Source of the DNA: an uncultured Pelagibacteraceae bacterium
Lineage (GTDB): Bacteria > Pseudomonadota > Alphaproteobacteria > Pelagibacterales > Pelagibacteraceae
Assembly (NCBI GenBank): GCA_902627735.1
Contig: CACOKI010000002.1
Location: forward strand, 36,673 to 100,672
Reading direction: 5' to 3'
DNA length: 64,000 nt
Of the stretch, positions 7,815 through 58,272 are shown one piece after another. The position numbers and the translations under genes are program-made. How positions within the stretch are numbered: the first letter of the stretch is position 1; each line of letters opens with the position of its first letter. The notes under the pieces were generated by a model that saw only the letters and a list, made by a program, of their open reading frames with translations, did not search any database and was not told the DNA's origin.

Positions 7815-7836
7815 ATACTTTTCCTCTTTAAATTTA

Positions 7837-10782: not shown

Positions 10783-11133
10783 TTAGAAGCTAAGATTTTT
10801 AAGCGTAGCCAAATATTGATTGAATTCCTCAATGAATGCTTCACTAGGTTTTATGTGTTTTTTTCTTTGATCACCAGAAGTTTTTTCAAGGAAAAAAAAA
10901 CCTTTTTCACATGCCTCATTTATCATTAAAGCAGACTTTGGTCGTGAAGTTTTAAACAATTTTGTCTTCAATTCCTCAACAGTCAGATTTTCTTTATATT
11001 TAAAAGCATGCATTACAAGAAGCATCATATGATAATGTGATGGTGATTTTCTAAAAAAGTAATTACTAGACATATGAGATAGTTTCATTTGATCTTCCCA
11101 AAACTCTAATAAATCTTTTGTAGTTTTTGCCAT
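10783..11133 (-). CDS. MarR-like winged-helix regulator adjoining tdm
   Basis: A 116-residue protein whose size and pattern fit a winged helix-turn-helix domain: a helical N-terminus with many His/Tyr/Met (NYFFRKSPSHYHMMLLV), LTVEELKTKLF followed by RPKSALMINEACEKGFF as candidate helix-turn-helix, and a wing-like TSGDQRKKHIKPSEAF, where MarR proteins carry D-x-R. The ATG overlaps the tdm stop by one base, so it is cotranscribed with TMAO demethylase and is a plausible autoregulator or pathway regulator. The family call is pattern-based; a catabolic accessory protein cannot be excluded. Confidence 0.6.
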   Translation of the reverse strand: MAKTTKDLLEFWEDQMKLSHMSSNYFFRKSPSHYHMMLLVMHAFKYKENLTVEELKTKLFKTSRPKSALMINEACEKGFFFLEKTSGDQRKKHIKPSEAFIEEFNQYLATLKNLSF

Positions 11134-31042: not shown

Positions 31043-32299
31043 ATGCAAAAATACTCAATATTTAGCTTAATTAAAAACGCCTTTTCTAATCATGAAAAAT
31101 GGGATTTGGCTTGGAAAGACCCATCTCCAAAGAAAGAATATGACGTTGTTATAATTGGTGGTGGAGGTCATGGCTTAGCAACAGCTTATTATTTGGCAAA
31201 AGAACACAAAATTACAAATGTAGCTATAATTGAAAAAGGATGGATTGGTGGAGGAAATATTGGAAGAAATACAACAATCATTAGATCAAATTTTATGTAC
31301 GATGATAATGCAAGATTTAATGAGTTTGGAATGAATTTGTGGAGAAATATGAGCCAAGAATTAAATTTTAATGTCATGTTTTCTCCAAGAGGAATAATAA
31401 ATTTAGCTCATTCTGATGCACAAATGAATGCATATGCTCGTAGAGGTAATTCTATGAGATTAAATGGTATTGATGCTGTTTTACTTAACAGGGAAGAAAT
31501 AAAAAAAATTATTCCTATGGCAGATTTTTCTGAGGATGTTAGATATCCAATTTTTGGTGGATTAGCTCAACCTAGCGCTGGCACTGCAAGACATGATGCT
31601 GTTGCGTGGGGATATGCCCGGCAAGCTGATTCAATGGGTGTAGATATTATTCAAAATTGCGAAGTTACTGGGTTTGATGTTTCAGGTGGAAAAATTCAAG
31701 GAGTGAGAACTTCAAGGGGCGATATTAAAACAAAAAAAATTGGTCTTTGTGTAGCTGGCAGTACAAATGTTTTAGCAGAAAAATTAAATATAACATTGCC
31801 GATTGAGACACATCTTTTACAAGCATGTGTTTCTGAACCAGTAAAACCTGTCTTAGATGGGGTAGTAACTTTTGGTGCAGGACATTTTTATATAAGCCAA
31901 TCAGATAAAGGTGAAATGGTAATGGGTGGAGATTTAGATGGATATAACAGTTATGCTCAAAAAGGAAATTTACCAACAATTCAACATGTATTAACTGGTG
32001 GTATAGCATTGTTTCCTTTTTTAAGTAGGTTGAAAATGCTTAGAACATGGGGAGGTATAATGGACATGTCTATGGATGGATCGCCAATAATTGATAAAAC
32101 TCATATTGATGGATTATATTTAAATTGTGGTTGGTGTTATGGAGGATTTAAATCTGTACCATCATCAGGATGGACTTTCGCTCATACTATTGCTCAAGAT
32201 AGAGTACATGAATTAAATGAGGGTTTCAGTTTAAATAGATTTGCAAAAGGATATTTGTTGGACGAAAAGGGACTTGGAACAAAAACTTGGATTTCGTAA
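31043..32299 (+). CDS. soxB: Sarcosine oxidase / N-methylglutamate dehydrogenase beta-type subunit
   Basis: A 418-residue FAD/FMN subunit of the heterotetrameric sarcosine oxidase family; the homologous MgdA belongs to N-methylglutamate dehydrogenase. The FAD motif DVVIIGGGGHGLATAYYLAK, GWIGGGNIGRNTTIIRSNF and TARHDAVAWGYAR (with the His that covalently binds FMN in SoxB) are present. The C-terminus has the flavin-proximal YLNCGWCYGGFKSVPSSGW. First of four contiguous genes. Sarcosine or N-methylglutamate is oxidised to glycine or glutamate; the mgsABC genes in the window make N-methylglutamate a credible substrate. Confidence 0.88.
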   Translation: MQKYSIFSLIKNAFSNHEKWDLAWKDPSPKKEYDVVIIGGGGHGLATAYYLAKEHKITNVAIIEKGWIGGGNIGRNTTIIRSNFMYDDNARFNEFGMNLWRNMSQELNFNVMFSPRGIINLAHSDAQMNAYARRGNSMRLNGIDAVLLNREEIKKIIPMADFSEDVRYPIFGGLAQPSAGTARHDAVAWGYARQADSMGVDIIQNCEVTGFDVSGGKIQGVRTSRGDIKTKKIGLCVAGSTNVLAEKLNITLPIETHLLQACVSEPVKPVLDGVVTFGAGHFYISQSDKGEMVMGGDLDGYNSYAQKGNLPTIQHVLTGGIALFPFLSRLKMLRTWGGIMDMSMDGSPIIDKTHIDGLYLNCGWCYGGFKSVPSSGWTFAHTIAQDRVHELNEGFSLNRFAKGYLLDEKGLGTKTWIS

Positions 32300-32569
32300 A
32301 TGCTTAATATCAATTGTCCCTACTGTGGAGATAGATCTCAAAAAGAATTTGCTTATGGCGGAGATGCAACAGTAAAAAGACCAGAATTAAATAAAGAAGT
32401 GTCAGATGAAAAATGGAATGAATTTATCTATTTAAGAAAAAGTCCAAGAGGAAAACATATTGAGTTATGGCATCATATTGCTGGTTGTAGACAATGGTTT
32501 AAAGTTCAAAGAGATACAGTCACACACGAAATTTTTAAAACTGCAAAAATGAATGAAGAAATAAAATGA
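32300..32569 (+). CDS. soxD: Sarcosine oxidase / N-methylglutamate dehydrogenase delta-type subunit
   Basis: An 89-residue zinc-binding subunit. CPYCGDRSQKEFAYGG near the N-terminus, ELWHHIAGCRQWFKVQRDT near the middle-to-end and the overall size are diagnostic of SoxD/MgdB. It directly follows soxB with no gap and overlaps the next gene by 4 bases. Confidence 0.92.
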   Translation: MLNINCPYCGDRSQKEFAYGGDATVKRPELNKEVSDEKWNEFIYLRKSPRGKHIELWHHIAGCRQWFKVQRDTVTHEIFKTAKMNEEIK

Positions 32570-35562
32570 GTCAGTCATATCGATTAAAAAATGAAGGTTT
32601 AATAAATAGAAATAAAGAAATAATTTTCAAGTTTAATGGAAAAAAATATAAAGGATATGAAGGAGATACTTTAGCTTCAGCTTTACTTGCAAATGGAGTT
32701 CACTTAGTAGGAAGAAGTTTTAAATATCATAGACCAAGAGGTTTCTTTGGTGCGGGCGTTGATGAACCAAACGCGAAGTTGCAAATCCAATTAAATGGTC
32801 ACTCAGAACCTAATGTAAATGCTACAGAATTTGAATTAGTGGAGGGTGTTGAAGCTAGTAGTCAAAACTGCTGGCCTTCAGTAGAATTTGATATAGGAGC
32901 TGTAAATAATTTTTTGAATAGATTTTTTCCTGCTGGTTTTTATTACAAAACATTTATGTGGCCAAAAAGCTTTTGGTATAAAATTTATGAACCATTTATC
33001 AGAAAAGCGGCTGGACTTGGTATTGCATCTGTGGAGAAAGATAAAGAAAGATATGAACATAAATATGAATATTGTGATTTACTTGTTACTGGATCTGGCC
33101 CTGCTGGTTTATCAAGTGCCTATTCAGCTGCAAAGAATGGAGCAAAAGTTATTTTGGCTGAGGATAAACCAAGGTTTGGCGGGTCATTACTAACAGATGA
33201 TGTAACTATAGATAATTTATCAGGTAAAGACTGGGCAGATAAAATTATTACTGAGCTGAAAGAAATGCCTAACGTGATTGTTAAGAATAGATCACAGGTT
33301 TTTGGTTACTATGATCATAATATGATGGTTATGTTTGAAAGAACAGGGGATCATTTGAATGATAAACCTAAATATACTCCAAGACAAAGGTTATGGTATG
33401 TAAGAGCTAAAGAAGTATTGTTGTCCACAGGTTCAATAGAAAGACCGATAGTCTTTGGAAATAATGATACCCCTGGAGTATTTTTATCAGCTGCAGCAAA
33501 AGAATATATAAAAGTTTATGGAGTTTTGGTTGGTAAAAAACCTTTAATATTTACGAATAATGATAGTGCATATGAAACTGCCTTAGAGTTTAAAAAACAA
33601 GGTATTGAACCTATAATTTTAGATACAAGGGAGGAACAATCATCTGAATTAATAAACAGTGCAAAAAATCAAAATATTCAAATAAAATTTTGTCATGCTG
33701 TAATTGCTGCAAACGGATATAAAAAAGTTAGATCGGCACAAATTGGTAAATTGAATAAAGAGAAAACAGGATTTGAAAATATTCAAACTATTGAATGTGA
33801 TTGTATATGTGTATCAGGATTTTGGACTCCAACAGTCCATCTAGCATCACAATCAGGTAATAAACTTAAGTTTAATGATGATATAGATGCTTTTATTCCT
33901 GATAAATCAAAACAAAACGAAAAATCTGTAGGAGCTTCGAATGGAACTTTTACATTAAAGAAAACTTTAGAGGATGGATTTAAAACTGGATTTGAAGTCT
34001 CGAAAAATATAACTAATAATAACATTTCAACCTCAACTCCAAATTCAAATGAAACTAAGAAAAGTGTACATGATAAATTTTGGTGCTCTCCGTTACCTAA
34101 TGGGAAAAACTACAAACGTTTTGTAGATTTTCAAAATGATGTCGCGGTTTCAGATATTGAAGTTGCTTTACGGGAAGGTTATAGATCAATTGAACATGTT
34201 AAAAGATATACAACATTAGGAATGGCAACCGATCAAGGTCGTACTAGTAATCTTAATGGTCTTCAATTGGTTGCAAATGTTGAAAAAAAAATTGTTCCAC
34301 AAGTTGGCCATACAACTTTCAGACCACCATTTACTCCTATTACGATAGGTACAATTGTTGGAAGAGAAATAGATATGGAATATATGCCAACAAGAAAAAC
34401 GCCAATGCACACATGGCATGAAAAAAATAATGCAGTTTTTGTTGATGCGGGTGCTTGGAAGAGACCAAGATATTACAAACAAGGTAATGAGTCTTTATTT
34501 GAGGCTTCGAAAAGAGAAGCAAAAAATGTTAGAGACCATGTAGGTATTTGTGATGTAACTACTTTAGGAAAAATTGATATTAAAGGACCAGACTCAGCAG
34601 AATTTTTAAATAGAGTTTATACCAATGCATGGTTAAAGCTTCCAATTGGTAAAGCAAGATATGGCGTTATGCTGAGAGAAGATGGAATAGTAATGGATGA
34701 TGGAACTACAACTAGAATTTCTGAAAATCACTATCACATGACAACGACAACAGCACAGGCAGCGAATGTGTTGTCTCATTTGGAATATTATCTTCAAATT
34801 GTTTGGCCAGAGTTAAATGTAAACGTTATATCAACAACCGAGCAATGGGCTGGAGCTGCACTTGCAGGCCCTAAATCAAGAGATGTATTAGCAAAATTAT
34901 TTCCTAATCTTGATGTAACTAATGAATCTCTACCATTTATGGGTTACATGGAAGGAGATTTATTTGGTGTAAAAGCAAGAATATTTAGAATTTCATTTTC
35001 AGGAGAGCTTGCATACGAAATTAATGTTGAGTCTGATTACGGTCTTTATATGTGGGAGAAAATGATCGAAATTGGTAAAGAATTTAATATCCAGCCTTAT
35101 GGAACTGAAGCATTATCAACATTAAGAATCGAAATGGGTCATGTAGCTGGACCTGAACTCGATGGAAGAACTATTCCTTATGACGTTTCTTTAGAAGGTT
35201 TACTGTCAAAGAAAAAAGATTTTATTGGTAAAAGGTCTTTGCAAAAAGAAGCATTTAATAAAAATGATAGGCAAAAAATAGTTGGTCTTGTTCCAACAGA
35301 TAAAAAATCTAGTATACCAGAGGGCTCACATTTAGTTTTAGATAAAAATGCCAAACTTCCGAATCCAAAATTAGGACATGTATCTTCATCTTGTTGGAGT
35401 GTAGAAAATAATAATCCTTTTTCTTTGGCAATAGTAAAAGATGGAAAAAATATGATTGGTAAAAAATTATTTGCAGTATCTCCATTAAAAAATACCGCTA
35501 TAGAGGTTGAAATAATCTCTTCTCATTATGTTGATCATGAAGGAAAGAGAGTTAGATCATGA
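32566..35562 (+). CDS. soxA: Sarcosine oxidase / N-methylglutamate dehydrogenase alpha-type subunit
   Basis: A 998-residue multidomain subunit. Residues about 15-100 form a 2Fe-2S-ferredoxin-like fold (FKYHRPRGFFGAGVDEPNA) that lacks the cluster, as in SoxA. From about 165, a pyridine-nucleotide binding domain begins with LLVTGSGPAGLSSAYSAAKNG. From about 600, a GcvT-type folate domain follows (GICDVTTLGKIDIKGPDSAE, GAALAGPKSRDVLAKL, RISFSGELAYEINVES), transferring the oxidised methyl to THF. It overlaps soxD and soxG by 4 bases each. The MgdC reading is equally consistent. Confidence 0.9.
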   Translation: MSQSYRLKNEGLINRNKEIIFKFNGKKYKGYEGDTLASALLANGVHLVGRSFKYHRPRGFFGAGVDEPNAKLQIQLNGHSEPNVNATEFELVEGVEASSQNCWPSVEFDIGAVNNFLNRFFPAGFYYKTFMWPKSFWYKIYEPFIRKAAGLGIASVEKDKERYEHKYEYCDLLVTGSGPAGLSSAYSAAKNGAKVILAEDKPRFGGSLLTDDVTIDNLSGKDWADKIITELKEMPNVIVKNRSQVFGYYDHNMMVMFERTGDHLNDKPKYTPRQRLWYVRAKEVLLSTGSIERPIVFGNNDTPGVFLSAAAKEYIKVYGVLVGKKPLIFTNNDSAYETALEFKKQGIEPIILDTREEQSSELINSAKNQNIQIKFCHAVIAANGYKKVRSAQIGKLNKEKTGFENIQTIECDCICVSGFWTPTVHLASQSGNKLKFNDDIDAFIPDKSKQNEKSVGASNGTFTLKKTLEDGFKTGFEVSKNITNNNISTSTPNSNETKKSVHDKFWCSPLPNGKNYKRFVDFQNDVAVSDIEVALREGYRSIEHVKRYTTLGMATDQGRTSNLNGLQLVANVEKKIVPQVGHTTFRPPFTPITIGTIVGREIDMEYMPTRKTPMHTWHEKNNAVFVDAGAWKRPRYYKQGNESLFEASKREAKNVRDHVGICDVTTLGKIDIKGPDSAEFLNRVYTNAWLKLPIGKARYGVMLREDGIVMDDGTTTRISENHYHMTTTTAQAANVLSHLEYYLQIVWPELNVNVISTTEQWAGAALAGPKSRDVLAKLFPNLDVTNESLPFMGYMEGDLFGVKARIFRISFSGELAYEINVESDYGLYMWEKMIEIGKEFNIQPYGTEALSTLRIEMGHVAGPELDGRTIPYDVSLEGLLSKKKDFIGKRSLQKEAFNKNDRQKIVGLVPTDKKSSIPEGSHLVLDKNAKLPNPKLGHVSSSCWSVENNNPFSLAIVKDGKNMIGKKLFAVSPLKNTAIEVEIISSHYVDHEGKRVRS

Positions 35563-36143
35563 TGAATATTTCAGCTCTAAACTTTATTCATAAAATTGGA
35601 AAATTTGGCGATCATAATGGAAAAAATGATGAAACTTTATTAAAAGTCTCTGAATTAAATAAATTATTGATATTTCAAATCGCTAAATTTAAAAATTCTG
35701 ATTTTGATATTTCTAAAATAAAAGTAGATGGATTAAATCTTCCATCATCATTAAAATCATCTTCTAATTCGAATACAAGGGTATTATGGTTTGGGCCTGA
35801 CAATTGGTTAGTTTTTTCATCTGATTTAAATTTAATTGAAAAAGAAAAAAAACAATTTAATGAATTAGACTTTGCTATAACTGATATTTCACATTCAAGA
35901 GCTATAATTGAATTAGAAGGAAATTTGGTTAACGAAGTTTTAAAAAAAGGATGTCCTTTGGATATTAATTCTTTTAAAGAAGGTGATTGTGCAAACTCAG
36001 TTTATAACGGAATAACAGTTACAATTGACTTTGTCTCAGATAATCCTAAAAAAGTAAGAATATCTGGTTTAAGAAGTTTTGGTGAATCTCTTCATCACTC
36101 AATTACTGACTCTTGTTTAGAATTTGGATATAAATCAATTTAG
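35559..36143 (+). CDS. soxG: Sarcosine oxidase / N-methylglutamate dehydrogenase gamma-type subunit
   Basis: A 194-residue SoxG/MgdD-like protein with a GcvT-related N-terminal domain fold. WFGPDNWLVFSSD, TDISHSRAIIELEG, KGCPLDINSF and the C-terminal RSFGESLHHSITDSCLEFG match the family. It ends the four-gene operon. The start ATG overlaps the soxA stop, with a second ATG directly after; either could be used. It converges with the EamA transporter gene two bases away. Confidence 0.85.
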   Translation: MMNISALNFIHKIGKFGDHNGKNDETLLKVSELNKLLIFQIAKFKNSDFDISKIKVDGLNLPSSLKSSSNSNTRVLWFGPDNWLVFSSDLNLIEKEKKQFNELDFAITDISHSRAIIELEGNLVNEVLKKGCPLDINSFKEGDCANSVYNGITVTIDFVSDNPKKVRISGLRSFGESLHHSITDSCLEFGYKSI

Positions 36144-45261: not shown

Positions 45262-46626
45262 TTAACCTTTAACAACTTCTCTAGTATTAGCGTTGAAAGA
45301 CTCTTTAAATGGTATATCTACTATTACAGCATCTACAGGTTTGCCTGGAGTCTCCGAGTATTTTTCAGGTAAATGAACTTTATATTTTGTTCCAACTTTA
45401 CCTTTTGGAAACCCATTGGCGTTTAATGTTCCATCAAAAGGCACATAACCCATAGCAATATTTGTTTTTTTCTCTGGGTGATACCAAGGTGACGTTACAA
45501 AACCTATTGGATCACCACCGTTTGCGCCTGAAATTAACCAAAAATCTGGTGCATAGTCCTCAATTGGTTTTCCACCAAGTTCGAAACCAACTAATTGTAA
45601 TTTGTATGGTTTTTTACCATCTTTCAGTTCTTTACCCATTTTTTCTAATGCAGCCTTACCAACATAATCACCTTTTTTATTCCATTCTCCTTTTCCAGAT
45701 AAAGAAACTTGATAACCTAAATTACATTGAAAAGGATTATGTTGCTGATCCATGTCTTGTCCCCAAGAAAGAATTCCAGCTTGAATTCTTCTGTGGTGCG
45801 CTGGCGCAATAACCATAAGTTTATGTTTTTTTCCGGCTTCAAGAACTGCATTCCACATATCTTCTGCATATAGAGTAGCATTTCTTAAATAAATTTCATA
45901 TCCAGCCTCTCCTGAAAAGCCTGATTGTGAAATTACACAACTTCTTCCTCCAACCTTCACCTCTGCTAAACCATAGAAAGGCATGTTATCAAAATCAACT
46001 TGATCTCCACATAAATCTTTCATTAAAGCTTTTGATTTAGGACCTTGAATTTGAACAGGACATGCATCTATTTCTTCGACTGTGCAATTAAATCTACCAT
46101 CAGCATTAACACCTTGAAGATACATTCCAATGTCAGAGTCTGATAAAGAAAACCAAAACTCATCTTTTGAGATTCTCAAAAGAATTGGATCATTTAAAAC
46201 GCCTCCATATGCATTACATAGGATTACGTATCTTGCTCGCATTGGTGAAATTTTTGTAGCATCTCTAGTTATGACATAATCAACAAATTTTTCTGCATCT
46301 GGACCTTTAACCTGGATTTGTCTTTCAACAGCAACGTTCCACATTGTTACATGATTTACGATTGCATCATATTCCACCATTGCTCCACCATCTTCAGGTT
46401 TTACATAACCCCTTGGATGATAAATTCGATTGTATACAGTTGCTCTCCAACAACCTGCCTGCATTGATAAATGCCAATAAGGCGATTTTCTTACCCTTGT
46501 TGAAATTAACATTTCAACTTTAGTCGGCCCACTTTGTCTTAAATTGTATGGTACTTTCCGATCTGATTGATCAACAGAAGTAACATGTTTTAGTTTAGTA
46601 TAGTCAAATTCTTTAGACATAACCAT
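45262..46626 (-). CDS. DmdA-like GcvT-fold methyltransferase of unknown substrate
   Basis: A 454-residue THF-dependent aminomethyltransferase-fold protein. It shares layout and motifs with DMSP demethylase (WNVAVERQIQVKGPDAEKF, LSDSDIGMYLQG, VQIQGPKSKALM, SQSGFSGEAGYEIYLR, FECGL-like NPFQCNLGY) but has a distinct N-terminal part (RKSPYWHLSMQAGCWRAT) and is longer than DmdA. It overlaps a MetF-like gene by 14 bases. DmdA passes methyl to THF as 5-methyl-THF, and MetF oxidises that, so the pair suggests demethylation of an unknown methylated compound. M3 (MSKEFDYTKL) is an alternative start. Confidence 0.78.
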   Translation of the reverse strand: MVMSKEFDYTKLKHVTSVDQSDRKVPYNLRQSGPTKVEMLISTRVRKSPYWHLSMQAGCWRATVYNRIYHPRGYVKPEDGGAMVEYDAIVNHVTMWNVAVERQIQVKGPDAEKFVDYVITRDATKISPMRARYVILCNAYGGVLNDPILLRISKDEFWFSLSDSDIGMYLQGVNADGRFNCTVEEIDACPVQIQGPKSKALMKDLCGDQVDFDNMPFYGLAEVKVGGRSCVISQSGFSGEAGYEIYLRNATLYAEDMWNAVLEAGKKHKLMVIAPAHHRRIQAGILSWGQDMDQQHNPFQCNLGYQVSLSGKGEWNKKGDYVGKAALEKMGKELKDGKKPYKLQLVGFELGGKPIEDYAPDFWLISGANGGDPIGFVTSPWYHPEKKTNIAMGYVPFDGTLNANGFPKGKVGTKYKVHLPEKYSETPGKPVDAVIVDIPFKESFNANTREVVKG

Positions 46627-47341
46627 TCTCCTTCAACCACTTGTTAGTTTCCTTCAAGCCGCCGAATGTATAAATGTGGAAGAAATCAGTATGCGATTTA
46701 ACTTTCCCAATTAAATCATTAGGGTCTTTAGGTTTCAATAAATCTAATGCCTTATTAAAATTAGACTTAAGAAAGTTAATGGAATTTTTTGCTCCAACAA
46801 TATTAGCAAATTTAATCAAGCTTGATATTTTTAGAGGTCCAGTAATTCCAACATGCACTGGTACGCTTTGTTTAGAAATAAAATCTATGATAGGCTGAGG
46901 ATCTAATAACCACTGGGTTACAATATAGTCAGCATAAGGCTTTTTATCTTTCATAGCTTTTTCTAAATCTGAGTCGGATATATCAGGACTCCCCTCTGGG
47001 TGTCCAGCAATTCCTATTGTCATCTTCTCAAAATAACCAGTTTCTAAAAGTTGAAATGAGCTATCAAATTTACCAAGAGGCTCCCTTCCTCCACCAATTA
47101 TTAGAACCTGTTTAACTCCTCCATCTTTGCACCTTGATACGTAATCTTTTAGCTGTTTTTCATCATGCATTGATCTGGCAGGAAAATGAGGTACTGGATT
47201 AAAACCTTTTTTAACCAACTCAACTGCTTGTTGAGCCGTTTCTTTGTAGTCTCCTCCAGGCAACATTGTGATGTAAATATCATTTACTGGTGGTACTGTT
47301 GATAGGTCGGTTTGGGGACCAATTTCCAAAGAAAATTTCAT
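46613..47341 (-). CDS. Methylenetetrahydrofolate reductase-like protein
   Basis: A 242-residue TIM-barrel protein of the MetF family, shorter than usual MetF (about 290). The N-terminal SLEIGPQTDLSTVPP corresponds to the MetF glutamate-containing first strand, and VNDIYITMLPGG, VPHFPARSMHD, GGVKQVLIIGGG, GIAGHPEGSPD and DYIVTQWLLDPQPIIDF follow in family order, with FAD/THF-contacting loops expected here. It is encoded first in a two-gene unit with the DmdA-like gene (14-base overlap), suggesting it runs as a 5-methyl-THF oxidiser for that enzyme. A plain biosynthetic MetF is the alternative. Confidence 0.8.
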   Translation of the reverse strand: MKFSLEIGPQTDLSTVPPVNDIYITMLPGGDYKETAQQAVELVKKGFNPVPHFPARSMHDEKQLKDYVSRCKDGGVKQVLIIGGGREPLGKFDSSFQLLETGYFEKMTIGIAGHPEGSPDISDSDLEKAMKDKKPYADYIVTQWLLDPQPIIDFISKQSVPVHVGITGPLKISSLIKFANIVGAKNSINFLKSNFNKALDLLKPKDPNDLIGKVKSHTDFFHIYTFGGLKETNKWLKENGYV

Positions 47342-47419
47342 TTTAAGATCATTATCTTATTTGAAAAAGCTGTCAAAGAAATTCATTGTAGAGTGTGACG
47401 AAATTTGTTGCCAAAAAAT

Positions 47420-48637
47420 ATGCTCATGTTAATTTTTTTTGTGGACCAAAATATCAAAAATTTCCCTCTCTCAAAAATACTAGATATTGAAAAACTAAAT
47501 AATGTTGATAAACCAATAGAAGTGGCCAATGGCCTTCCCAATGAGTGTTATACTAGTAAAGATTATTTTATACACGAAAGGGAAAAGGTTTTTTTCAATA
47601 AATGGACTGTTGTTGGGGTAGCAAGTTCTTTACCTAACCCTGGAGATGCTAAACCTTACAGTCTTTTAGGTATCCCATTGATTATTTTAAGAGATAAAAA
47701 AATGCAGATTCGTGTTTTTCATAATGTATGTAGTCACAGAGGTTTTAAACTTCTAGATGAAACATGTACTTTAAAAAATGTTCTCAGATGTATGTATCAT
47801 TCTTGGTCTTATGATTTTAGTGGTAAACTTGTTGCAACACCACATATTGGTGGATTGAATAATCATAAATCAAACAATTTTGATAAAACAAAAAGTAATT
47901 TAAAAGAAGTAAAAACCAAAGTTTGGATGGATATAATTTTTGTTAATATCAATTCAAATGAAATTGATTTTGATGAATATATTAAACCTTTAGAAAACAG
48001 ATGGTCAAAGTTTATAAGTAAAGAGGATCATAATCTTCTAGTGCATTCAAATGATTATGGCTATTTCAATTTAGAAGTAGAATGTAATTGGAAATTTGCA
48101 ATTGAAAATTATTGTGAAAGTTATCATTTGCCTACAATTCATCCAGAGTTAAATAAAGTTTCAAACATTAATGATCATTATCATATTCAAGGATTACCGA
48201 ATAGATTTGCTGGTCAAGGAAGTAAAAAGTACGAACAACCCATGGAGGGTAATAAAAAATTCAATACTTTTCATAATTGGGATAAAGATATGTTAAAAAA
48301 TTCTGAGTATGTAGCTCTGTTTCCAAATGTAATGATAGGCTTGCACATAGATCATTTTTATGTTTTTTGGTTAGAACCTTTAGCAATAAATAAAACTAAA
48401 GAACATATGCAAATGTATTATGTTGGAAGTGAAAGTGCTAACGGTAATGAATTAAAAGATTTAAGAAAAGAAAATTCAAGGTTCTGGAAAGATGTTATGT
48501 TAGAGGATGTAAGAGCAATTGAGGGAATGCAAGATGGAAGAAATTCACCTGTTTATAATGGTGGAAATTTTTCTCCTGTAATGGATAAACCAACTCACCA
48601 ATTTCATAAATGGGTAGCAAATAGTTTAATGAGGTAA
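47420..48637 (+). CDS. Rieske 2Fe-2S aromatic-ring/quaternary-amine-type oxygenase alpha subunit
   Basis: About 405 residues. The Rieske cluster ligands are CSHRGFK and CMYHSW; the catalytic mononuclear iron region is ENYCESYHLPTIHPEL, with a later acidic LEDVRAIEGMQDG. This layout fits the COG4638 group that includes glycine betaine, stachydrine and carnitine oxygenases. ATG at 47420 is used; 47426 or 47441 (GTG) are possible. No dedicated reductase gene follows. It starts about 80 bases from the divergent MetF-like gene, so both may share a promoter region. Substrate unknown. Confidence 0.82.
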   Translation: MLMLIFFVDQNIKNFPLSKILDIEKLNNVDKPIEVANGLPNECYTSKDYFIHEREKVFFNKWTVVGVASSLPNPGDAKPYSLLGIPLIILRDKKMQIRVFHNVCSHRGFKLLDETCTLKNVLRCMYHSWSYDFSGKLVATPHIGGLNNHKSNNFDKTKSNLKEVKTKVWMDIIFVNINSNEIDFDEYIKPLENRWSKFISKEDHNLLVHSNDYGYFNLEVECNWKFAIENYCESYHLPTIHPELNKVSNINDHYHIQGLPNRFAGQGSKKYEQPMEGNKKFNTFHNWDKDMLKNSEYVALFPNVMIGLHIDHFYVFWLEPLAINKTKEHMQMYYVGSESANGNELKDLRKENSRFWKDVMLEDVRAIEGMQDGRNSPVYNGGNFSPVMDKPTHQFHKWVANSLMR

Positions 48638-48643
48638 AAGATA

Positions 48644-49273
48644 ATGGCACTTAAAGATGTTGGAAACAAAGTTCCTATTTATAAACTCAAAACAACTAAT
48701 GAGGTAATGAAATTCTATGACGAGTGGGGTGAGCATAACAAATATAATAAAGACATGGTTGAATGGAATTATACGGGTCCACAAGAAACCGTCGAAGTTT
48801 TTAAAAAATATGAACAGAATAAGGATGCACTAATCTTTGATGCTGGTTGTGGAACTGGTTTAGTAGGATTAGAATTAAAAAAATTTGGTTATAAAAACTT
48901 TTATGGAGCTGATCTTTCACAAAAGTTATTAGATACAATTCCCAACAATCTTTATAAAAAATTAATTAAAGTTGATTTAAACAAAACTATAGATGAAAAA
49001 AATGATTTTTACGACTCTGTAATGTGTGTTGGAACTTTTACTTTTGGACATGTTAAACCACAGGCCCTTGATGAGTTTATAAGAATAACAAAAAAAGGTG
49101 GATTGATATGCTTCACAATAAATGAAGGTATTTATAAGGAATATGGTTTTGATAAAAAGATTGATACATTAAAAATGGAAGGTAAATGGAAAGAATTGGA
49201 ATTTTTTAAATCTGATTATATAGCTAGTAAAGATGTAAATGCATGGCTCGGATTATATAGAGTGAATAAATGA
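48644..49273 (+). CDS. Class I SAM-dependent methyltransferase
   Basis: A 209-residue protein. LIFDAGCGTGLVGLELKK is SAM motif I (residues about 64-81), NFYGADLSQKLLD fits motif II, and FYDSVMCVGTFTFGHV the motif IV/V region. A small-molecule methyltransferase is likely, given the size. It follows the Rieske gene by 6 bases and overlaps the P-loop kinase gene by 4 bases (ATGA). Confidence 0.85.
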   Translation: MALKDVGNKVPIYKLKTTNEVMKFYDEWGEHNKYNKDMVEWNYTGPQETVEVFKKYEQNKDALIFDAGCGTGLVGLELKKFGYKNFYGADLSQKLLDTIPNNLYKKLIKVDLNKTIDEKNDFYDSVMCVGTFTFGHVKPQALDEFIRITKKGGLICFTINEGIYKEYGFDKKIDTLKMEGKWKELEFFKSDYIASKDVNAWLGLYRVNK

Positions 49274-49677
49274 AAATAATTTTAATTATGGGACTACCAG
49301 GATCTGGAAAAACTACTTTGGCTAACGAACTTGGTCCAATGTTAAATGCAAAAAGGTTGAATGCGGATGAAGTTAGAAAAGCTGCCAACGATTGGGATTT
49401 TTCTGAGGAAGGTAGAAAAAGACAAGCTAAAAGAATGGCTGATTTTGCAATTAAGTTAAAAGAGACTGGAAACTTTGTTGTTGCAGATTTTATTTGTCCA
49501 ACACCAGAAGCAAGAAGTTTATTTCCCGCAGATTATATTATTTGGGTAGATACGATTAAAGAGGGAAGATTTGACGATACAAACAAAATGTTTGTTAAAC
49601 CTGATAAGTATGACTTTCATGTGACTACACAAGATGCTAAAAACTGGGCACCAAAAATATACAAGGAGATCAAATAA
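49270..49677 (+). CDS. Small P-loop kinase, APS kinase/AAA_33-like
   Basis: A 135-residue protein with Walker A LIMGLPGSGKTTLANEL at the N-terminus and LNADEVRKAANDWDFS, KRMADFAIKLKETGNFVVAD and YIIWVDTIKEGRFDDT downstream, the order seen in CysC-like small-molecule kinases. It is shorter than CysC (about 180-200). It is wedged between a methyltransferase and a nucleotidyltransferase gene (overlaps of 4 and 1 base). Substrate unknown; no ATP sulfurylase or sulfate reduction genes were seen here. Confidence 0.8.
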   Translation: MKIILIMGLPGSGKTTLANELGPMLNAKRLNADEVRKAANDWDFSEEGRKRQAKRMADFAIKLKETGNFVVADFICPTPEARSLFPADYIIWVDTIKEGRFDDTNKMFVKPDKYDFHVTTQDAKNWAPKIYKEIK

Positions 49678-50051
49678 TGACTTACGAATGGGATAACAAA
49701 AAACCGACCGCTCAAATGTTAGGAAGATGGCAACCGTTTCATGATGGTCATTATACTTTATTTAAAGAAATTATAAAAAAAACAGGTCAAGTTTGTATTC
49801 AAGTAAGAGATGTCCAAGGAGTAGATGATAACCCTTTTGATTTTGAAACTGTGAAAAAAAATATTGAAGTTAGATTAAATCCAGAATTTGAGGGAAGATT
49901 TAAAATCATGTTAGTACCCAATATAACAAATATATGTTACGGCAGAGGAGTTGGTTATAAAATAGAAGAGATTGTATTATCTGATGAAATTCAAAAAATT
50001 TCAGCTACTAAAATAAGAGCTAAAATGAGAGAAGAAGGAAAGCTTAAATAG
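49677..50051 (+). CDS. HxGH-type nucleotidyltransferase (cytidylyl/adenylyltransferase-like)
   Basis: A 124-residue protein of the HIGH superfamily. GRWQPFHDGHYTLFKEII holds an H-D-G-H motif, and KISATKIRAKM is the ISSTxIR-type motif near the C-terminus. It is small (others are 140-210). It joins the kinase gene by one base (TAATG). Together they could phosphorylate and then nucleotidylate a small metabolite. Ligand not inferable. Confidence 0.8.
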   Translation: MTYEWDNKKPTAQMLGRWQPFHDGHYTLFKEIIKKTGQVCIQVRDVQGVDDNPFDFETVKKNIEVRLNPEFEGRFKIMLVPNITNICYGRGVGYKIEEIVLSDEIQKISATKIRAKMREEGKLK

Positions 50052-50059
50052 AATTTTTA

Positions 50060-50833
50060 ATGAACATTAAAGTTAAAAATTTATCAGGTGGAATATCTAT
50101 TATCACTATTAATGAACCTAAAACATACAATTCATTATCATATAAAAATTTAATAGATTTAATAAGGGTTTTTCAAAAGGTTGATAAAGACAAAAAAATA
50201 AAAGTTATTATTCTTGAAGGAGCAGGTAAAGGTTTTAGTGCAGGACATAATTTAAAAGAGGTTAAAAATCTAAAACGGAAAAATAGATATCAAAAATTAT
50301 TTAATCTTTGTTCAAAATTAATGCTTCAAATAGTTGAAGGAAAAAAACCAGTTATTGCCAAAGTACATGGAGCTGCTTATGCTGCTGGCTGTCAATTAGT
50401 TGCTAGTTGCGATTTAGCTTACAGCACAAAAGAAGCCTTATTTGCGACACCTGGTGTAAATATTGGATTATTTTGTAGTACACCAATGGTAGCAGTCAGT
50501 AGAAAAATCAATAGAAAGCCGATGATGAAAATGTTGTTAACAGGAGAACCAATTAGAGCTAATTATGCTAAAGATATTGGTTTGATAAATGATTATTTTT
50601 CAAAATCTAAATTAAATAAAGAAGTTTTGAAAGTTGCAAAAAAAATAGCATCTAAATCAAATCTTACTATAAAAATTGGTAAACAAGCTTTTTATAAGCA
50701 ATTAGAAATGCCTTTAAGAAAAGCCTATGCATATACGAGTAAAATGATGACAATTAACATGATGGCTTTGGATGCTAAAGAGGGAATCTCTGCTTTTTTG
50801 GAAAAAAGAAAACCAAAATGGAAAAATAAGTGA
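50060..50833 (+). CDS. Enoyl-CoA hydratase/isomerase family protein
   Basis: A 257-residue crotonase-fold protein. The oxyanion-hole segment GAGKGFSAGHNLKEVK and KVHGAAYAAGCQLVASCDLA are typical; catalytic glutamates are not clear in the ATPGVNIGLFCSTPM region, so the exact reaction (hydration, isomerisation or hydrolysis) is uncertain. Overlapped by the next small gene at its stop (GTGA). Confidence 0.85.
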   Translation: MNIKVKNLSGGISIITINEPKTYNSLSYKNLIDLIRVFQKVDKDKKIKVIILEGAGKGFSAGHNLKEVKNLKRKNRYQKLFNLCSKLMLQIVEGKKPVIAKVHGAAYAAGCQLVASCDLAYSTKEALFATPGVNIGLFCSTPMVAVSRKINRKPMMKMLLTGEPIRANYAKDIGLINDYFSKSKLNKEVLKVAKKIASKSNLTIKIGKQAFYKQLEMPLRKAYAYTSKMMTINMMALDAKEGISAFLEKRKPKWKNK

Positions 50834-52493: not shown

Positions 52494-54926
52494 ATGAAAT
52501 CTAAAACAAAAGTAGTAGTTGTTGGTGGCGGAGTAGTCGGAGTTAGTGCATTATATCATTTAGCAAAAAAAGGTTGGTCAGATGTTGTTTTAGTTGAAAG
52601 AAAAGAATTAACATCTGGTTCAACATGGCATGCTGCAGGATTATTACCTCTTTTTAATATGAGTTATTCTGTTGGACAACTACACAAGTATGCTGTTGAT
52701 CTTTACAAAAAATTAGAAGAGGAAACAGGAAAAAATGTAGGCTTTAGTGTTGTGTCAAATATTCGTTTAGCAAGTACTAAAGATAGAATGGATGAATATC
52801 ATCAATATGCTGGTGTAGCAAAAACTATTGGAGTTGATGTAAAATTTTTAACACCACAACAAGTTAAAGAAATTTGGCCGTTGTGTCATACAGATGATTT
52901 AGTTGGAGCCATTCAACATCCGGAGGATGGATATATTCAACCAGCAGACTTAACGCAAGCTCTTGCTACAGGCGCAAGAAATAGAGGAGCTGAAATTTAT
53001 AGAAATACAACTGTTATAGGTATGAAACAAACTAAAGATGGATGGATTGTTGAGACAGATAAAGGTTCAATAGAATGTGAACATGTAATTTCATGTTCAG
53101 GAAATTTTGCAAGACAAACAGGTGAGATGGTTGGATTAGATATTCCGGTTATACCAGTTGAGCACCAGTATATTGTAACAGAACCTCATCCAGAAATTCA
53201 AAAAAGAAAAAAAGAAGGACTTCCTGAAATGGGAGTATTAAGAGATAGTGATAGCAGATGGTATATGAGAGAAGAGGCTGGAGGATTAATTTTAGGCCCT
53301 TATGAAGATGGCGCACCTGCTTGTTACGTTGAAGGACCGTCAAAAAATTCAGAGTATGAATTATTTCAAGAAGATTTAGATAGACTTGCACCACATATTG
53401 AGGGAGCAATACATCGAGTTCCTGCATTCGGAGAAGTTGGTGTTAAAAAAGTTTATAATGGAGCAATTTGTTATACTCCCGATGGAAATCCAATAGTTGG
53501 TCCCGCATGGGGATTGAAAAACTTTTGGATTAATGAAGGGCATAGTTTTGGAATAACGGCAGCTGGTGGTGCTGGTTGGCAATTAGCTGAGTGGATTGTT
53601 GATGGGGAACCAACAATAGATATGCTTGGCGTAGAACCAAGACGTTATGGAAATTATGCAACAAAATCTTATTTAAAAGCTAAAAATGAAGAAGCATATA
53701 GCCATGTTTTTATTGTTCATTATCCAGATGAAGAAAGACCAGCAGCAAGACCCTTGAGAACTTCACCTTGCTACGAAAGAATGAAAGCTCTTGGAGCGGT
53801 ATTTGGACAAAAATTTGGCTGGGAAAGACCTAATTTTTTTGCAACTGATGGGATGGAACAAAAAGATGATTGGTCATTTAGAAGATCAAAATGGTTTGAT
53901 GCAATAAAAAAAGAATGTGAAAATGTAAAAAAGAATGTTGGACTTTTGGACATGACAGCATTTGCAAAATGTAGAATTAAAGGACCTAAAGCTGAAGAAT
54001 TTTTAGATTATCTAGTTGCAAACAAACTTCCTAAAAAGATTGGCAGAATTAATTTATGTCACGCACTAAATACAAAAGGTGGTGTGCATTCAGAATTCAC
54101 AATCATGAAAGAGGCAGAAAACAGTTATTATCTTGTTTCTGCAGGAGCAAATTTACGATTAGACCACGACTGGATACAAAAATGGATGCCAACAGACGGT
54201 TCAGTAATTTTTGAGGATCTTACAAATAGTAATGGAGTATTAGTTGTTGCAGGTCCTAAATCTAGAGAATTGATGCAAAAAGTTTCAACAGATGATTTTT
54301 CTAATGAAAACTTTAAATGGTTAACAGCTAAGAATGTAAATGTAGGATATGCTCCAGTAAATGCAATGAGAGTAAATTTTGTTGGAGAATTAGGCTGGGA
54401 ATTACATCATCCAATTGAATACCAAAATCATATTTTTGATAAATTAATGGAGGCTGGAAAAGATTTGGGATTAAAACCTTTTGGAATTAGAGCTATGAAT
54501 AGCTTAAGAGTGGAAAAGTCATATAAACTTGTAGGAACCGAATTATCAATTGAATATTCTCCTTACGAGTCTGGCTTAGATAGATTTATACATCCTAATA
54601 AAGGAAACTTTATTGGACTTGAAGCACTCAATAAATGGAGAGAAAAGGGTTTTGATAACAAATTGGTAACGCTTGAAGTTCATAATACCACAGACTCAGA
54701 TGTATTAGGGAATAACCCTATATATAAAGATGATAGAGTTGTTGGAAGAGCAACTGGTGGCGAATATGGATTTAGATTGGACAAGTCTATAGCATTAGCA
54801 ATGGTAAAACCTGATTTAGCAAATGTTGGAGAAAAACTTAAAGTTGATATTCTAGGAAAGATGTATGAGGCTACAATTTTGGAGGAAAGTCCATATGATG
54901 CTGAAAATAAATTATTGAGAGCTTAA
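52494..54926 (+). CDS. Dimethylglycine dehydrogenase-type FAD/folate enzyme
   Basis: An 810-residue protein with an N-terminal FAD amine-oxidase domain ([21 protein letters not shown]; covalent-flavin-site-like [13 protein letters not shown]) and, from about residue 430, a GcvT-type THF domain ([48 protein letters not shown]). Dimethylglycine or sarcosine is oxidised and the C1 unit goes to THF as 5,10-methylene-THF. The etfB start overlaps its stop by one base, fitting electron delivery to ETF. The symbol dmgdh would fit; sarcosine dehydrogenase is the alternative. Confidence 0.87.
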
Positions 54927-55675
54927 TGAAAATTTTAGTCGCAGTTAAAAGAGTTATTGATTATAATGTCCAAGTCAGAGTTAAAGAAGACAATACAGGT
55001 GTTGTTACTGACAATGTCAAAATGTCTACTAACCCCCCAGACGATAATGCAATTGAAGAGGCAGTTAAAATTAAAGAAGCTGGTAAAGCTAATGAAGTAA
55101 TAGCAGTTAGTATTGGGGAAGAAAAAGCTCAAGAAACAGTTCGTAAAGCTTTAGCAGTTGGAGCTGATAGAGGCATCCTTGTTAAAGCCGAAGGTATTAT
55201 AGAGCCTTTAGCAGTCTCTAAACTTTTACAAAAAATTGTTGAAAAAGAAAAACCAGATTTAGTTTTTATGGGAAAACAAGCAATTGATGATGATTGTAAT
55301 CAAACAGGTCAAATGTTAAGTGCTCTATTAAACTGGCCCCAAGCAACTTTTGCATCGAAAATTGAAATTAAAGATGGAAAATTGGAAGTTACGAGAGAAA
55401 TTGATGAGGGTCTTGAGACAATTGAGATAGCTACTCCAGCAATTGTTACATGTGATTTAAGATTAAATGAGCCAAGATATGCTTCATTACCCAATATAAT
55501 GAAAGCTAAGAAAAAACCCATTGAACAATTAAATGCGTCAGATTTAGGAGTAGATACTTCTCCAAGAATCGAACAAGTTAAAGTTGAGGAGCCACCAAAA
55601 AGAAAAGCAGGTATAAAAGTTTCTAGTGTGGCTGAATTGGTTCAAAAATTAAAAAATGAGGCAAAGGTAATTTAA
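54926..55675 (+). CDS. etfB: Electron transfer flavoprotein beta subunit
   Basis: A 249-residue ETF beta subunit. [39 protein letters not shown] and [20 protein letters not shown] (AMP/FAD region) match EtfB, as does [20 protein letters not shown]. Partner of EtfA (next gene, no gap) for electrons from the amine dehydrogenase. Confidence 0.95.
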
Positions 55676-56629
55676 ATGGCGGTTTTATTAATTGCAGAAC
55701 ATAATAATAAAGAATTAAGACCCTTTACACTAAATGCTGTAACTGCAGCATCTCAGATAGATAGTGATGTTCATGCAATAATAATTGGTCAAAACTCTGG
55801 AGATGCTGCTAAAGCATTATCAGAATTACCTTTAGTTAAAAAAGTTATTCATGTTGAAGCAGCTTATTATGAGAATTTTGTTGCAGAAAATTTCGCACCA
55901 GTAATTGTTAAGTTGGCTGATAATTATTCTCATATAATTTGTTCAGCAAATACATTTGGAAAAAATTTAATGCCAAGAATAGCAGCTGCATTAGATACAT
56001 CTCAAATAAGTGATATTATCAAAGTAATTTCACCCGATACATTTTTAAGACCAATTTATGCTGGAAATGCTTTTGCAACTGTTAAAAGTAAAGATGCAAA
56101 AAAATGTGTTACAATAAGACCTACATCATTTGATCCTTGTGAAAGTTCAGGTGGGTCAGCTCCAATTGAAAAAGCTGAACCTGGTGAAGAATTTGCCAAT
56201 ACTAAATTTATTAAAAGAGAAGAAATAAAATCTGATAGACCAGAGTTAGGAACTGCAAGAGTTGTCATCTCTGGAGGAAGAGGAATGCAAAGTGGAGACA
56301 ATTTTAAGTTAATTACATCGATTGCAGATAAATTAAATGCAGCGATCGGAGCATCAAGAGCAGCAGTTGATGCTGGATATATAAGCAATGATCACCAAGT
56401 AGGTCAAACAGGAAAAGTAGTAGTACCAGATTTATATATCGCGGTTGGTATATCGGGTGCTATTCAACATTTAGCAGGAATGAAGGAAAGTAAAATAATT
56501 GTAGCAATTAATAAAGATGGGGAAGCACCAATATTTAGCGTAGCAGATTATGGTCTTGAGGCTGATCTTTTTGAAGCTCTTCCACAATTCTTAGAAGAAT
56601 TGAACAAATTAAACACTATACAAAAATAA
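55676..56629 (+). CDS. etfA: Electron transfer flavoprotein alpha subunit
   Basis: A 317-residue ETF alpha subunit with the C-terminal FAD-binding domain: VVISGGRGMQSGDNFKLI, GASRAAVDAGYISNDHQVGQ, TGKVVVPDLYIAVGISGAIQH and INKDGEAPIFSVADYGLEAD. It binds the FAD of the ETF heterodimer. It follows etfB directly and precedes the ETF-quinone oxidoreductase gene by 23 bases. Confidence 0.95.
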   Translation: MAVLLIAEHNNKELRPFTLNAVTAASQIDSDVHAIIIGQNSGDAAKALSELPLVKKVIHVEAAYYENFVAENFAPVIVKLADNYSHIICSANTFGKNLMPRIAAALDTSQISDIIKVISPDTFLRPIYAGNAFATVKSKDAKKCVTIRPTSFDPCESSGGSAPIEKAEPGEEFANTKFIKREEIKSDRPELGTARVVISGGRGMQSGDNFKLITSIADKLNAAIGASRAAVDAGYISNDHQVGQTGKVVVPDLYIAVGISGAIQHLAGMKESKIIVAINKDGEAPIFSVADYGLEADLFEALPQFLEELNKLNTIQK

Positions 56630-56652
56630 TAGAATCTGTAAAAAATTAGATT

Positions 56653-58272
56653 ATGTCCAGAGAGACAATGGAATATGATGTTGTGATAATAGGTGGAGGT
56701 CCATCTGGTTTGTCAACAGCAATAAAATTAAAACAATTAGACGCAAATTTAAATGTATGTGTTTTAGAAAAAGCGTCAGAAATAGGTGCACATATATTAA
56801 GTGGAAATGTTTTTGAAACTAGAGCCTTAGATGAATTATTACCTAATTGGAAAGATTTAAACTCACCAATTAAAACTAAAGTTTCAAAAGAAAAATTTTT
56901 ATTTTTAGGAAAAACAAAATCTTTAAGTTGGCCGACATGGCTACTTCCTTCTGTTCAACAAAATCATAAAAATTATATTATTAGTTTAGCTAATTTATGC
57001 AGATGGCTTGCTGAACAAGCTGAAGCCCTAGGTGTTGAAATTTTTCCAGGATTTCCAGCTAGTGAAATTTTGTATGATGACAAAGGTTCAGTAAAAGGTG
57101 TTGTGACCCAAGATATGGGTATCGATAAAGAAGGAAATAAAAAAGATAGTTTTGAACCTGGGATAGAACTTTTAGGAAAGGTAACAGTATTTGCTGAGGG
57201 TTGCAGAGGTCATTTGGGAAAACAGTTGATTAAAAAATTTGAGTTAGACAAAGGTAAAGATCCTCAACAATATGGAATAGGTTTTAAAGAAATATGGGAA
57301 ATTAAAGAAGAAAATCATGAAGAAGGCTTGGTTATGCATACTGCAGGATGGCCTTTAGACAATAATACATATGGTGGAAGCTTTATTTATCATGCAGAAA
57401 ATAAGCAAGTTTTTTTGGGTTATGTTATTGGATTAGATTATAAAAATCCTCATTTATCCCCATTTGATGAATTTCAAAGATTTAAAACACATACAGCTAT
57501 AAGAAAGGTTATTGAAGGAGGAAAAAGAATTTCATATGGAGCTAGAGCATTAATTGAGGGTGGCTTTCAAAGTTTACCTAAAATGTATATGCCCGGAGCA
57601 TTACTAATAGGATGTGATGCTGGAACATTAAATATGCCAAAGATAAAAGGATCACATACAGCAATGAAAAGTGGGATCATTGCAGCTGAGACTATTGTTG
57701 AACATTTTAAATCTAAAAAAGATTTATCTTTATATGAAGAAAATTTTAAAAAAAGTTGGTTATATGAAGAACTCTATAAAGCAAGAAACGTTAAACCAAG
57801 TTTTAGCTGGGGATTGATTTTAGGAATAATATTTACAGGAATAGATCAAATATTATTTAGGGGACGATTACCTTTAACATTAAAGCACAAACATGCCGAT
57901 CATGAAACATTAAAACCTGCAAATGAGATGCCAAAAATTGAGTATCCAAAACCAGATAATAAAATCACTTTTGATAAAACAAGCTCTGTTTATTTAACTG
58001 GTACAAATCATGTAGATAATCAACCAGTACATTTGCAATTAAAAGATCCAAATTTACCAATCAGTTACACTTTAGAAAAATTTGATGAACCTGCTCAAAG
58101 GTATTGTCCTGCAGGAGTATACGAAATACAAAAAGAGAATAATATTAATAAATTTGTAATTAATTCTCAAAATTGTATTCATTGTAAAACTTGTGACATC
58201 AAAGAACCTTCTCAAAATATTGTTTGGGTAACTCCAGAGGGCGGTGGTGGACCTAAGTATGGGAATATGTAA
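56653..58272 (+). CDS. Electron transfer flavoprotein-ubiquinone oxidoreductase
   Basis: A 539-residue membrane-associated flavo-Fe-S protein passing electrons from ETF to the ubiquinone pool. The N-terminal YDVVIIGGGPSGLSTAIKLKQ binds FAD, with GCDAGTLNMPKIKGSHTAMK in the middle and the 4Fe-4S ligand region CPAGVY and CIHCKTCDIKEPSQNI at the end. It terminates the DMGDH-ETF operon. Convergent with the small membrane gene, the stops four bases apart. Confidence 0.95.
   Translation: MSRETMEYDVVIIGGGPSGLSTAIKLKQLDANLNVCVLEKASEIGAHILSGNVFETRALDELLPNWKDLNSPIKTKVSKEKFLFLGKTKSLSWPTWLLPSVQQNHKNYIISLANLCRWLAEQAEALGVEIFPGFPASEILYDDKGSVKGVVTQDMGIDKEGNKKDSFEPGIELLGKVTVFAEGCRGHLGKQLIKKFELDKGKDPQQYGIGFKEIWEIKEENHEEGLVMHTAGWPLDNNTYGGSFIYHAENKQVFLGYVIGLDYKNPHLSPFDEFQRFKTHTAIRKVIEGGKRISYGARALIEGGFQSLPKMYMPGALLIGCDAGTLNMPKIKGSHTAMKSGIIAAETIVEHFKSKKDLSLYEENFKKSWLYEELYKARNVKPSFSWGLILGIIFTGIDQILFRGRLPLTLKHKHADHETLKPANEMPKIEYPKPDNKITFDKTSSVYLTGTNHVDNQPVHLQLKDPNLPISYTLEKFDEPAQRYCPAGVYEIQKENNINKFVINSQNCIHCKTCDIKEPSQNIVWVTPEGGGGPKYGNM

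Follow-up and report, generated by a model that had tools for sequence, protein, structure and literature searches.

A pair of overlapping genes in a SAR11 genome probably encodes a two-enzyme module for the oxidation of methyl groups, consisting of a glycine betaine (GBT) demethylase and an oxidative MTHFR, with gene context as the pointer to the substrate. SAR11 are very abundant ocean bacteria. GBT is one of the major osmolytes of the sea, and SAR11 oxidizes its methyl groups for energy (PMC3160333). The DNA analyzed, called the window in the following, is a stretch of 64,000 nucleotides from a SAR11 (Pelagibacteraceae) genome of 1.03 Mb that is 88% complete. The family of the 454-aa protein of the pair is named C0. 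The pair and the motifs identified in C0 by alignment are:

45262..46626, minus strand: GcvT-fold methyltransferase (C0), 454 aa, SAR11_1265 ortholog; GCV_T 138.7 bits; proposed THF-dependent GBT demethylase
46613..47341, minus strand: short MTHFR-like protein of 242 aa, orthologous to metF SAR11_1264; proposed 5-methyl-THF oxidase
46613..46626, minus strand: overlap of 14 bases between the end of metF and the start of C0
46558..46575, minus strand: VDQSDR, residues 18-23 of C0, N-terminal hallmark of the family
46318..46335, minus strand: VAVERQ, residues 98-103, common to DmdA
46132..46143, minus strand: SDSD, residues 162-165, ADSD in DmdA

In the proposed route, C0 would transfer a methyl group from GBT to THF, yielding dimethylglycine and 5-methyl-THF in a redox-neutral reaction like that of DmdA on DMSP. 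The 242-aa MetF would oxidize 5-methyl-THF to 5,10-methylene-THF, which would enter THF-linked C1 oxidation. The next two methyl groups would be converted to 5,10-methylene-THF by a DMGDH-like enzyme and sarcosine oxidase, leaving glycine, which could be channeled via serine into pyruvate where ammonia-lyases are present. Such a route would require neither cobalamin nor homocysteine. Very probably, judging from its family, C0 is a THF-dependent onium demethylase. Since the transfer needs an activated (onium) methyl donor, GBT would fit on chemical grounds, and the tertiary and secondary amines formed from it would not.

The original prediction had described a 454-aa GcvT-fold protein overlapping a 242-aa MetF-like protein by 14 bases, and this arrangement recurs throughout SAR11. 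Both genes are found in 79 of the 80 SAR11 loci fetched, including one with a partial metF (L036), and the overlap measures 14 bases in all 79; the locus without a complete pair, L074, starts 200 bases upstream of the gene. The pairing is thus not due to chance. Both ORFs begin with ATG, and translational coupling of metF and C0 through the overlap is likely. Across the 80 loci, C0 has a median identity of 94.3% (minimum 93.0%), and most flanking genes have medians of 64-87%, with the exception of a small kinase (90.4%) and a nucleotidyltransferase (93.5%). In both stationary conditions, the mRNAs of metF and SAR11_1265 drop jointly to 0.10-0.20, with protein at about 1.3-1.5, which shows co-regulation and gives no pointer to the substrate. 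No regulatory RNA was found at the gathering threshold within the window.

Among 167 Pelagibacterales genomes, C0 is present in 136 and MetF in 133. Both are encoded in 132 genomes, C0 alone in four (G756, G680, G710, and G720, with a partial C0 match in all), MetF alone in one (G726), and neither in 30 (Fisher 1.2e-27, a value inflated by assembly gaps because the genes are adjacent). The complete single-contig genomes G098, G375, and G658 carry neither gene. The expected co-occurrence of the pair was therefore found in 132 of the 133 MetF-positive genomes, and the pair also occurs in genomes of HIMB59 size, in another class, and in haloarchaea. A profile of 20 SAR11 C0 copies reaches 622-919 bits in 15 non-SAR11 Alphaproteobacteria among 385 genomes of the class, followed by G016 with 425-427 bits and then by DmdA-like proteins with at most 246 bits. 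Among 299 genomes of the phylum, three more were detected, all outside the class (G442, G535, and G502, 638-654 bits). A search of a plasmid collection with a C0 protein gave 23 matching records at E <= 1e-60, of which 16 are haloarchaeal; the haloarchaeal C0 proteins among the plasmid matches listed are 53.6-63.1% identical. HISP_RS18390 of Haloarcula hispanica is one haloarchaeal ortholog.

C0 forms a clade of its own outside DmdA and GcvT, which is new here. The window protein matches the Pfam families GCV_T (PF01571; cut-off 25.6) and GCV_T_C (26.4 bits), and the PDB entry that it matches best is DmdA 3tfh (E 8.4e-43). On the DmdA model NF009133, the window protein reaches 228.1 bits and C0 members range from 228 to 270 bits against a cut-off of 410, whereas the DmdA of the same genome reaches 572.7 bits. 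C0 also remains below both GcvT models (150.3 bits, cut-off 300; 130.4 bits, cut-off 235.85) and below the models for the aromatic O-demethylases LigM/DesA, NF047885 (36.5 bits, cut-off 580) and NF047633 (42.6 bits, cut-off 800). In a maximum-likelihood tree of 70 rows, the 34 C0 rows, which do not include G016, form one group with a support of 100/100 and no DmdA rows inside. The DmdA of the same genome falls among DmdA-like proteins and GcvT is separate from C0; the deep joins of this tree are unsure, with long branches. On the basis of model scores and tree, C0 was rejected as a true DmdA or GcvT. Structure predictions from 20-row SAR11 alignments were poor for both proteins of the pair (mean pLDDT 42.3 and 49.1).

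The sequence motifs likewise agree with what had been predicted. VAVERQ and SDSD, proposed as DmdA signatures, correspond in the alignment to VAAERQ and ADSD in the DmdA of the same genome, and the different, longer N-terminus is real: V18-D-Q-S-D-R23 is conserved in 33 or more of the 34 C0 members, including the archaeal ones, and its positions are gapped in 18-21 of 22 DmdA and DmdA-like proteins. Conserved DmdA-type residues common to C0 and DmdA are E101/R102, Y133, D146, W158, D163/S164, E244, and R280. Of the invariant positions of C0, 47 are invariant in the 22 DmdA and DmdA-like proteins as well, and 60, including the VDQSDR block, are specific to C0. R67, H70, Q234, F237, and W288 are residues unique to the C0 family. 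Because the residues common to DmdA and GcvT are described as chiefly folate-binding (PMC5395565), we infer from the alignments that C0 has kept the folate site and has a changed donor site.

The 242-aa protein is an MTHFR of an unusual kind. Its match to the MTHFR Pfam family is marginal (24.4 bits, cut-off 24), and it falls below the canonical MTHFR models TIGR00676 (24.5 bits, cut-off 293.7) and TIGR00677 (30.7 bits, cut-off 310). A profile of the short MetF family has its best PDB match in 7xg9, a 288-aa 5,10-MTHFR (E 1.7e-35; similarity over the full length, profile positions 2-237 on 17-280), followed by the next MTHFR-like entry at E 0.0007. We take 7xg9 to be S6MTHFR of Sphingobium SYK-6. 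S6MTHFR has been reported to oxidize 5-methyl-THF and to partner LigM, a demethylase derived from GcvT (PMC12585457). Relatives of the short MetF are encoded in 65 of the 385 class genomes and 33 of the 299 phylum genomes. In the genome of the window, no canonical MTHFR was matched at E <= 1e-3, compared with matches in 11 of 14 control genomes. SAR11 bacteria are described as lacking MetE and MetH (PMC12478193), and 5-methyl-THF therefore has no known biosynthetic use in them. It is very likely, from family and context, that MetF works in the oxidative direction from 5-methyl-THF to 5,10-methylene-THF. The 7xg9 match and the analogy with S6MTHFR and LigM thus give good support to the earlier suggestion of DmdA-type chemistry coupled to a reversed MetF.

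The window also encodes candidate enzymes for the subsequent steps:

52494..54926, plus strand: DMGDH-like FAD and GcvT protein, 810 aa; Pfam DAO, FAO_M, GCV_T, GCV_T_C; proposed pathway partner for the next step
54926-55675, plus strand: EtfB, downstream of dmgdh
55676-56629, plus strand: EtfA, downstream of dmgdh
56653-58272, plus strand: ETF-QO, downstream of dmgdh
31043-32299, plus strand: SoxB-like protein, in a heterotetrameric sarcosine oxidase-type set (31043..36143)
32566-35562, plus strand: SoxA-like protein of the same set
35559-36143, plus strand: 194-aa ORF in the soxG position of the same set

The dmgdh gene starts 5.2 kb from metF, and EtfB, EtfA, and ETF-QO (54926..58272) are proposed to form the electron path of the DMGDH-like enzyme. 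The genes at 31043..36143 encode either a sarcosine oxidase or an N-methylglutamate dehydrogenase. Of the SAR11 genomes tested, 22 with the pair and 20 without it, 21 and 5, respectively, contain a DMGDH ortholog with at least 74% identity (p 2.5e-6). The five pair-negative genomes with the ortholog, two of which have only fragments, and the pair-positive genome G659, in which none was found, run counter to GBT as the substrate.

The sarcosine oxidase-type set lies at the end of a dense methylated-amine region (2661-36143) with an ammonium transporter, genes like those for glutamate synthase and glutamine synthetase (4610-9306), a protein resembling TMAO demethylase (11133-13472; 1083.7 bits, cut-off 1100), and an FMO-type monooxygenase (19269-20600). 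A divergent cassette adjoining the pair (47405-50833) encodes a Rieske oxygenase (119.8 bits on the GbcA model, cut-off 670), a SAM methyltransferase, an APS-kinase-like, a small nucleotidyltransferase-like protein, and an enoyl-CoA hydratase. Its Rieske, methyltransferase, and kinase genes were rejected as parts of the module, as they vary among SAR11 genomes and do not accompany the pair outside SAR11; the Rieske homolog directly beside metF is absent from several of the 80 SAR11 loci.

The prediction that the substrate is not visible in the sequence holds for the window alone, but gene neighborhoods elsewhere point to GBT as a strong candidate. They were compared for 19 non-SAR11 C0 loci from 13 genera, several per genus, in windows of about 19.5 kb, some of them shortened by contig ends; G016 (L198) was included and G456 (293 bits, L202) excluded. 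Comparison sets were 20 DmdA-like loci and 20 arbitrary windows of C0 genomes with hand-picked, not random, positions. DMGDH-like genes occur within about 10 kb in 12 of 19 C0 loci (6 of 13 genera) and in none of either comparison set (Fisher 1.3e-5; by genus 0.0036). SoxA, SoxB, and SoxD were each found in 7 of 19 C0 loci, the GBT regulator GbdR and the formate-THF ligase Fhs each in four, and the serine ammonia-lyase SdaA in three, all with zero counts in both comparison sets. MetF is encoded in 6 of 19 C0 loci, 1 of 20 DmdA-like loci, and none of the arbitrary windows; ETF-QO is encoded in 1 of 20 DmdA-like loci and none of the arbitrary windows. DMSP-type neighbors were not seen in the 19 C0 loci. 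Because DMGDH, Sox, GbdR, and BCCT genes neighbor C0, GBT is probably its main substrate. Against this stand the seven C0 loci in which no DMGDH-like neighbor was found, the enrichment of soxA in just 3 of 13 genera (p 0.078), and the ability of DMGDH and Sox homologs to act on other N-methyl compounds.

In L184-L186 (G337, G030, G259), the gene order is soxB-soxD-soxA-soxG-dmgdh-metF-C0, an operon in which every step from GBT to glycine is assigned except that from GBT to dimethylglycine. In L183, C0 is followed by dmgdh and ETF-QO; some 17 kb beyond these lie metF, fhs, and soxBDA (L274). The gammaproteobacteria-like loci L199-L201 have a DMGDH match of just 32-33% identity, and in L200 C0 lies beside GbdR (500.8 bits, cut-off 480), Fhs, and L-serine ammonia-lyase. 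In two loci, C0 is the end of overlong ORFs when the earliest start is taken (L188 7845-10430, 861 aa; L190 91-2961, 956 aa), probably an artefact of start-site choice in GC-rich DNA, with a fusion as the less probable case. G016 has several DmdA-like genes on different contigs (L239, L240), and the copy in L239 adjoins a MetF of the same family. On a Phaeobacter inhibens plasmid (L286 8064-12150), genes for OsmC, enoyl-CoA hydratase, and acyl-CoA synthetase come after a DmdA-like gene that scores 364.7 bits (cut-off 410).

Haloarchaeal islands, examined in 8 of the 16 records, contain metF in seven, DMGDH-like genes and ilvA in six each, and a BCCT transporter, glyA, and formate-THF ligase in three each; the island L281 lacks them all. 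In L279, L282, and L284 there are also genes for folate synthesis (folP, pabB, or parts of aminodeoxychorismate synthase), as if the islands carried their own cofactor supply. In the GBT-like island of Haloarcula marismortui (L285 20043-21182), a ring-hydroxylating oxygenase gene lies between two DMGDH-like genes, and its presence there counts against the GBT reading.

The same MetF family is also found with a cobalamin system. In 20 MetF2 loci, picked mostly without C0, an MtgD-like pterin-binding methyltransferase is encoded in 14, a RACo-type corrinoid activator in 10, and an MtgC-like B12-binding protein in seven, whereas MtgD-, MtgC-, and RACo-type genes are found in 0 of 19 C0 loci. In Ruegeria pomeroyi, metF2 is located downstream of mtgD, and its product, MetF2, is the most differentially synthesized (induced) protein with three N-osmolytes (PMC12478193). 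Thus, one MetF family serves either C0 or a cobalamin system with demonstrated GBT demethylation. Among 22 C0 genomes, MtgB is above cut-off in three, two of them partial, and GbcA in none.

The same chemistry might act mainly on another onium donor, such as proline betaine, dimethylsulfonioacetate, carnitine, or a mixed betaine pool, with GBT as a minor substrate. Sequence does not reveal substrate specificity, the DMGDH-free C0 loci would fit, and C0 would be redundant for GBT in G301, which has C0 alongside three copies of MtgB and a protein resembling GbcA (635.6 bits, cut-off 670) and in this respect also speaks against GBT. However, the DMGDH, sarcosine oxidase, GbdR, and serine/threonine ammonia-lyase neighbors fit a sequence from dimethylglycine via glycine to serine, which makes another main donor rather unlikely. 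Homarine was rejected as a substrate, as in the literature at hand it is tied to N-methylglutamate dehydrogenase and not to the C0/MetF pair. The guess by Sun et al. (2011) that SAR11_1265, a relative of DmdA, takes the second methyl group of DMSP, from methylmercaptopropionate to mercaptopropionate (PMC3160333), and equally a role as second DMSP demethylase, appear highly improbable. As leading substrates these compounds are ruled out by the separate clade, the genome's own DmdA, and GBT genes in place of DMSP-type neighbors; furthermore, DmdB/DmdC steps on methylmercaptopropionate have been described for P. ubique, and C0 also occurs in haloarchaea.

For SAR11, Bhmt has been proposed as the sole enzyme of the first GBT step, without experimental validation there (PMC12478193, 2025), which would place C0 at a later step or elsewhere. 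Bhmt consumes one homocysteine per methyl group, and bhmT is controlled by a SAM-V riboswitch that is on at low SAM, properties ill-suited to an energy-yielding oxidation. The genome of the window and G207 each encode one PF02574 protein that falls below both the Bhmt and MmuM cut-offs. Strain HTCC1062 of Ca. Pelagibacter ubique oxidizes 14C-methyl GBT to CO2 and incorporates a negligible amount, in a medium described as containing 50 uM methionine (PMC3160333), a result not specific to the first GBT methyl group. That Bhmt alone performs this step is quite improbable, and both routes may coexist in SAR11. A biosynthetic direction, in which MetF would produce 5-methyl-THF for methylation of an acceptor by the GcvT-like protein, corresponds to the usual direction of MTHFR, and methyl transfer is reversible in principle. 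It is nevertheless extremely unlikely given the reported lack of MetE and MetH, the oxidation of 5-methyl-THF reported for the type to which the nearest solved MTHFR is assigned, and the catabolic neighbors (ammonia-lyases, Fhs, sarcosine oxidase).

With GBT as the preferred substrate, C0 would represent an unrecognized third kind of aerobic GBT demethylase from the GcvT/DmdA superfamily, independent of cobalamin, oxygen, and homocysteine, spread between domains on plasmids and replacing MtgBCD, GbcAB, or Bhmt. This broader reading, which we consider reasonably likely, would extend to the majority of SAR11 cells, to several further lineages of proteobacteria, and to haloarchaea, opening GBT to C1 oxidation together with an oxidative MTHFR. 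If true, the markers bhmt, mtgC, and gbcAB overlook a pathway found in the C0-positive majority (136/167) of the sampled Pelagibacterales genomes, and the catabolism of GBT in haloarchaea, which since 2011 has been suspected solely on the basis of genes for oxidases and transporters, gets its missing first enzyme. No folate- or GcvT-type GBT demethylase was found in the literature by title and abstract; unsearched papers and full texts may differ.

The closest known system is SAR11_1265/SAR11_1264 of HTCC1062, the same adjacent pair with a similarly distant dmgdh (SAR11_1253), in which SAR11_1265 was described as a DmdA-related aminomethyltransferase of unknown substrate adjoining metF (PMC3160333); SAR11_1265 is also named in PMC5069961. 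The window pair was equated with it by gene order and description. The pairing itself was thus already published in 2011, and new here are the separate clade, the reach of the family, the link to GBT genes, and the MetF type; the proposed substrate differs as well, being GBT instead of methylmercaptopropionate. DmdA (3tfh; NF009133) resembles C0 in fold, folate-site residues, and the VAxERQ and xDSD motifs, but C0 stays below its model cut-off and differs in its own clade, the VDQSDR N-terminal extension, and GBT rather than DMSP neighbors. GcvT, the glycine cleavage T-protein, has the same fold and domain families, yet C0 scores just 130-150 bits against cut-offs of 236-300 and is separate in the tree. 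LigM and S6MTHFR of Sphingobium lignivorans SYK-6 likewise combine a GcvT-derived THF demethylase with an oxidative MTHFR (PMC12585457), but LigM acts on vanillate methoxyl groups and its model matches C0 weakly. In R. pomeroyi, MtgBCD and MetF2 similarly supply 5-methyl-THF from GBT demethylation to MetF (PMC12478193), whereas the Mtg system requires cobalamin and three proteins, and its genes do not accompany C0 in the 19 loci compared.
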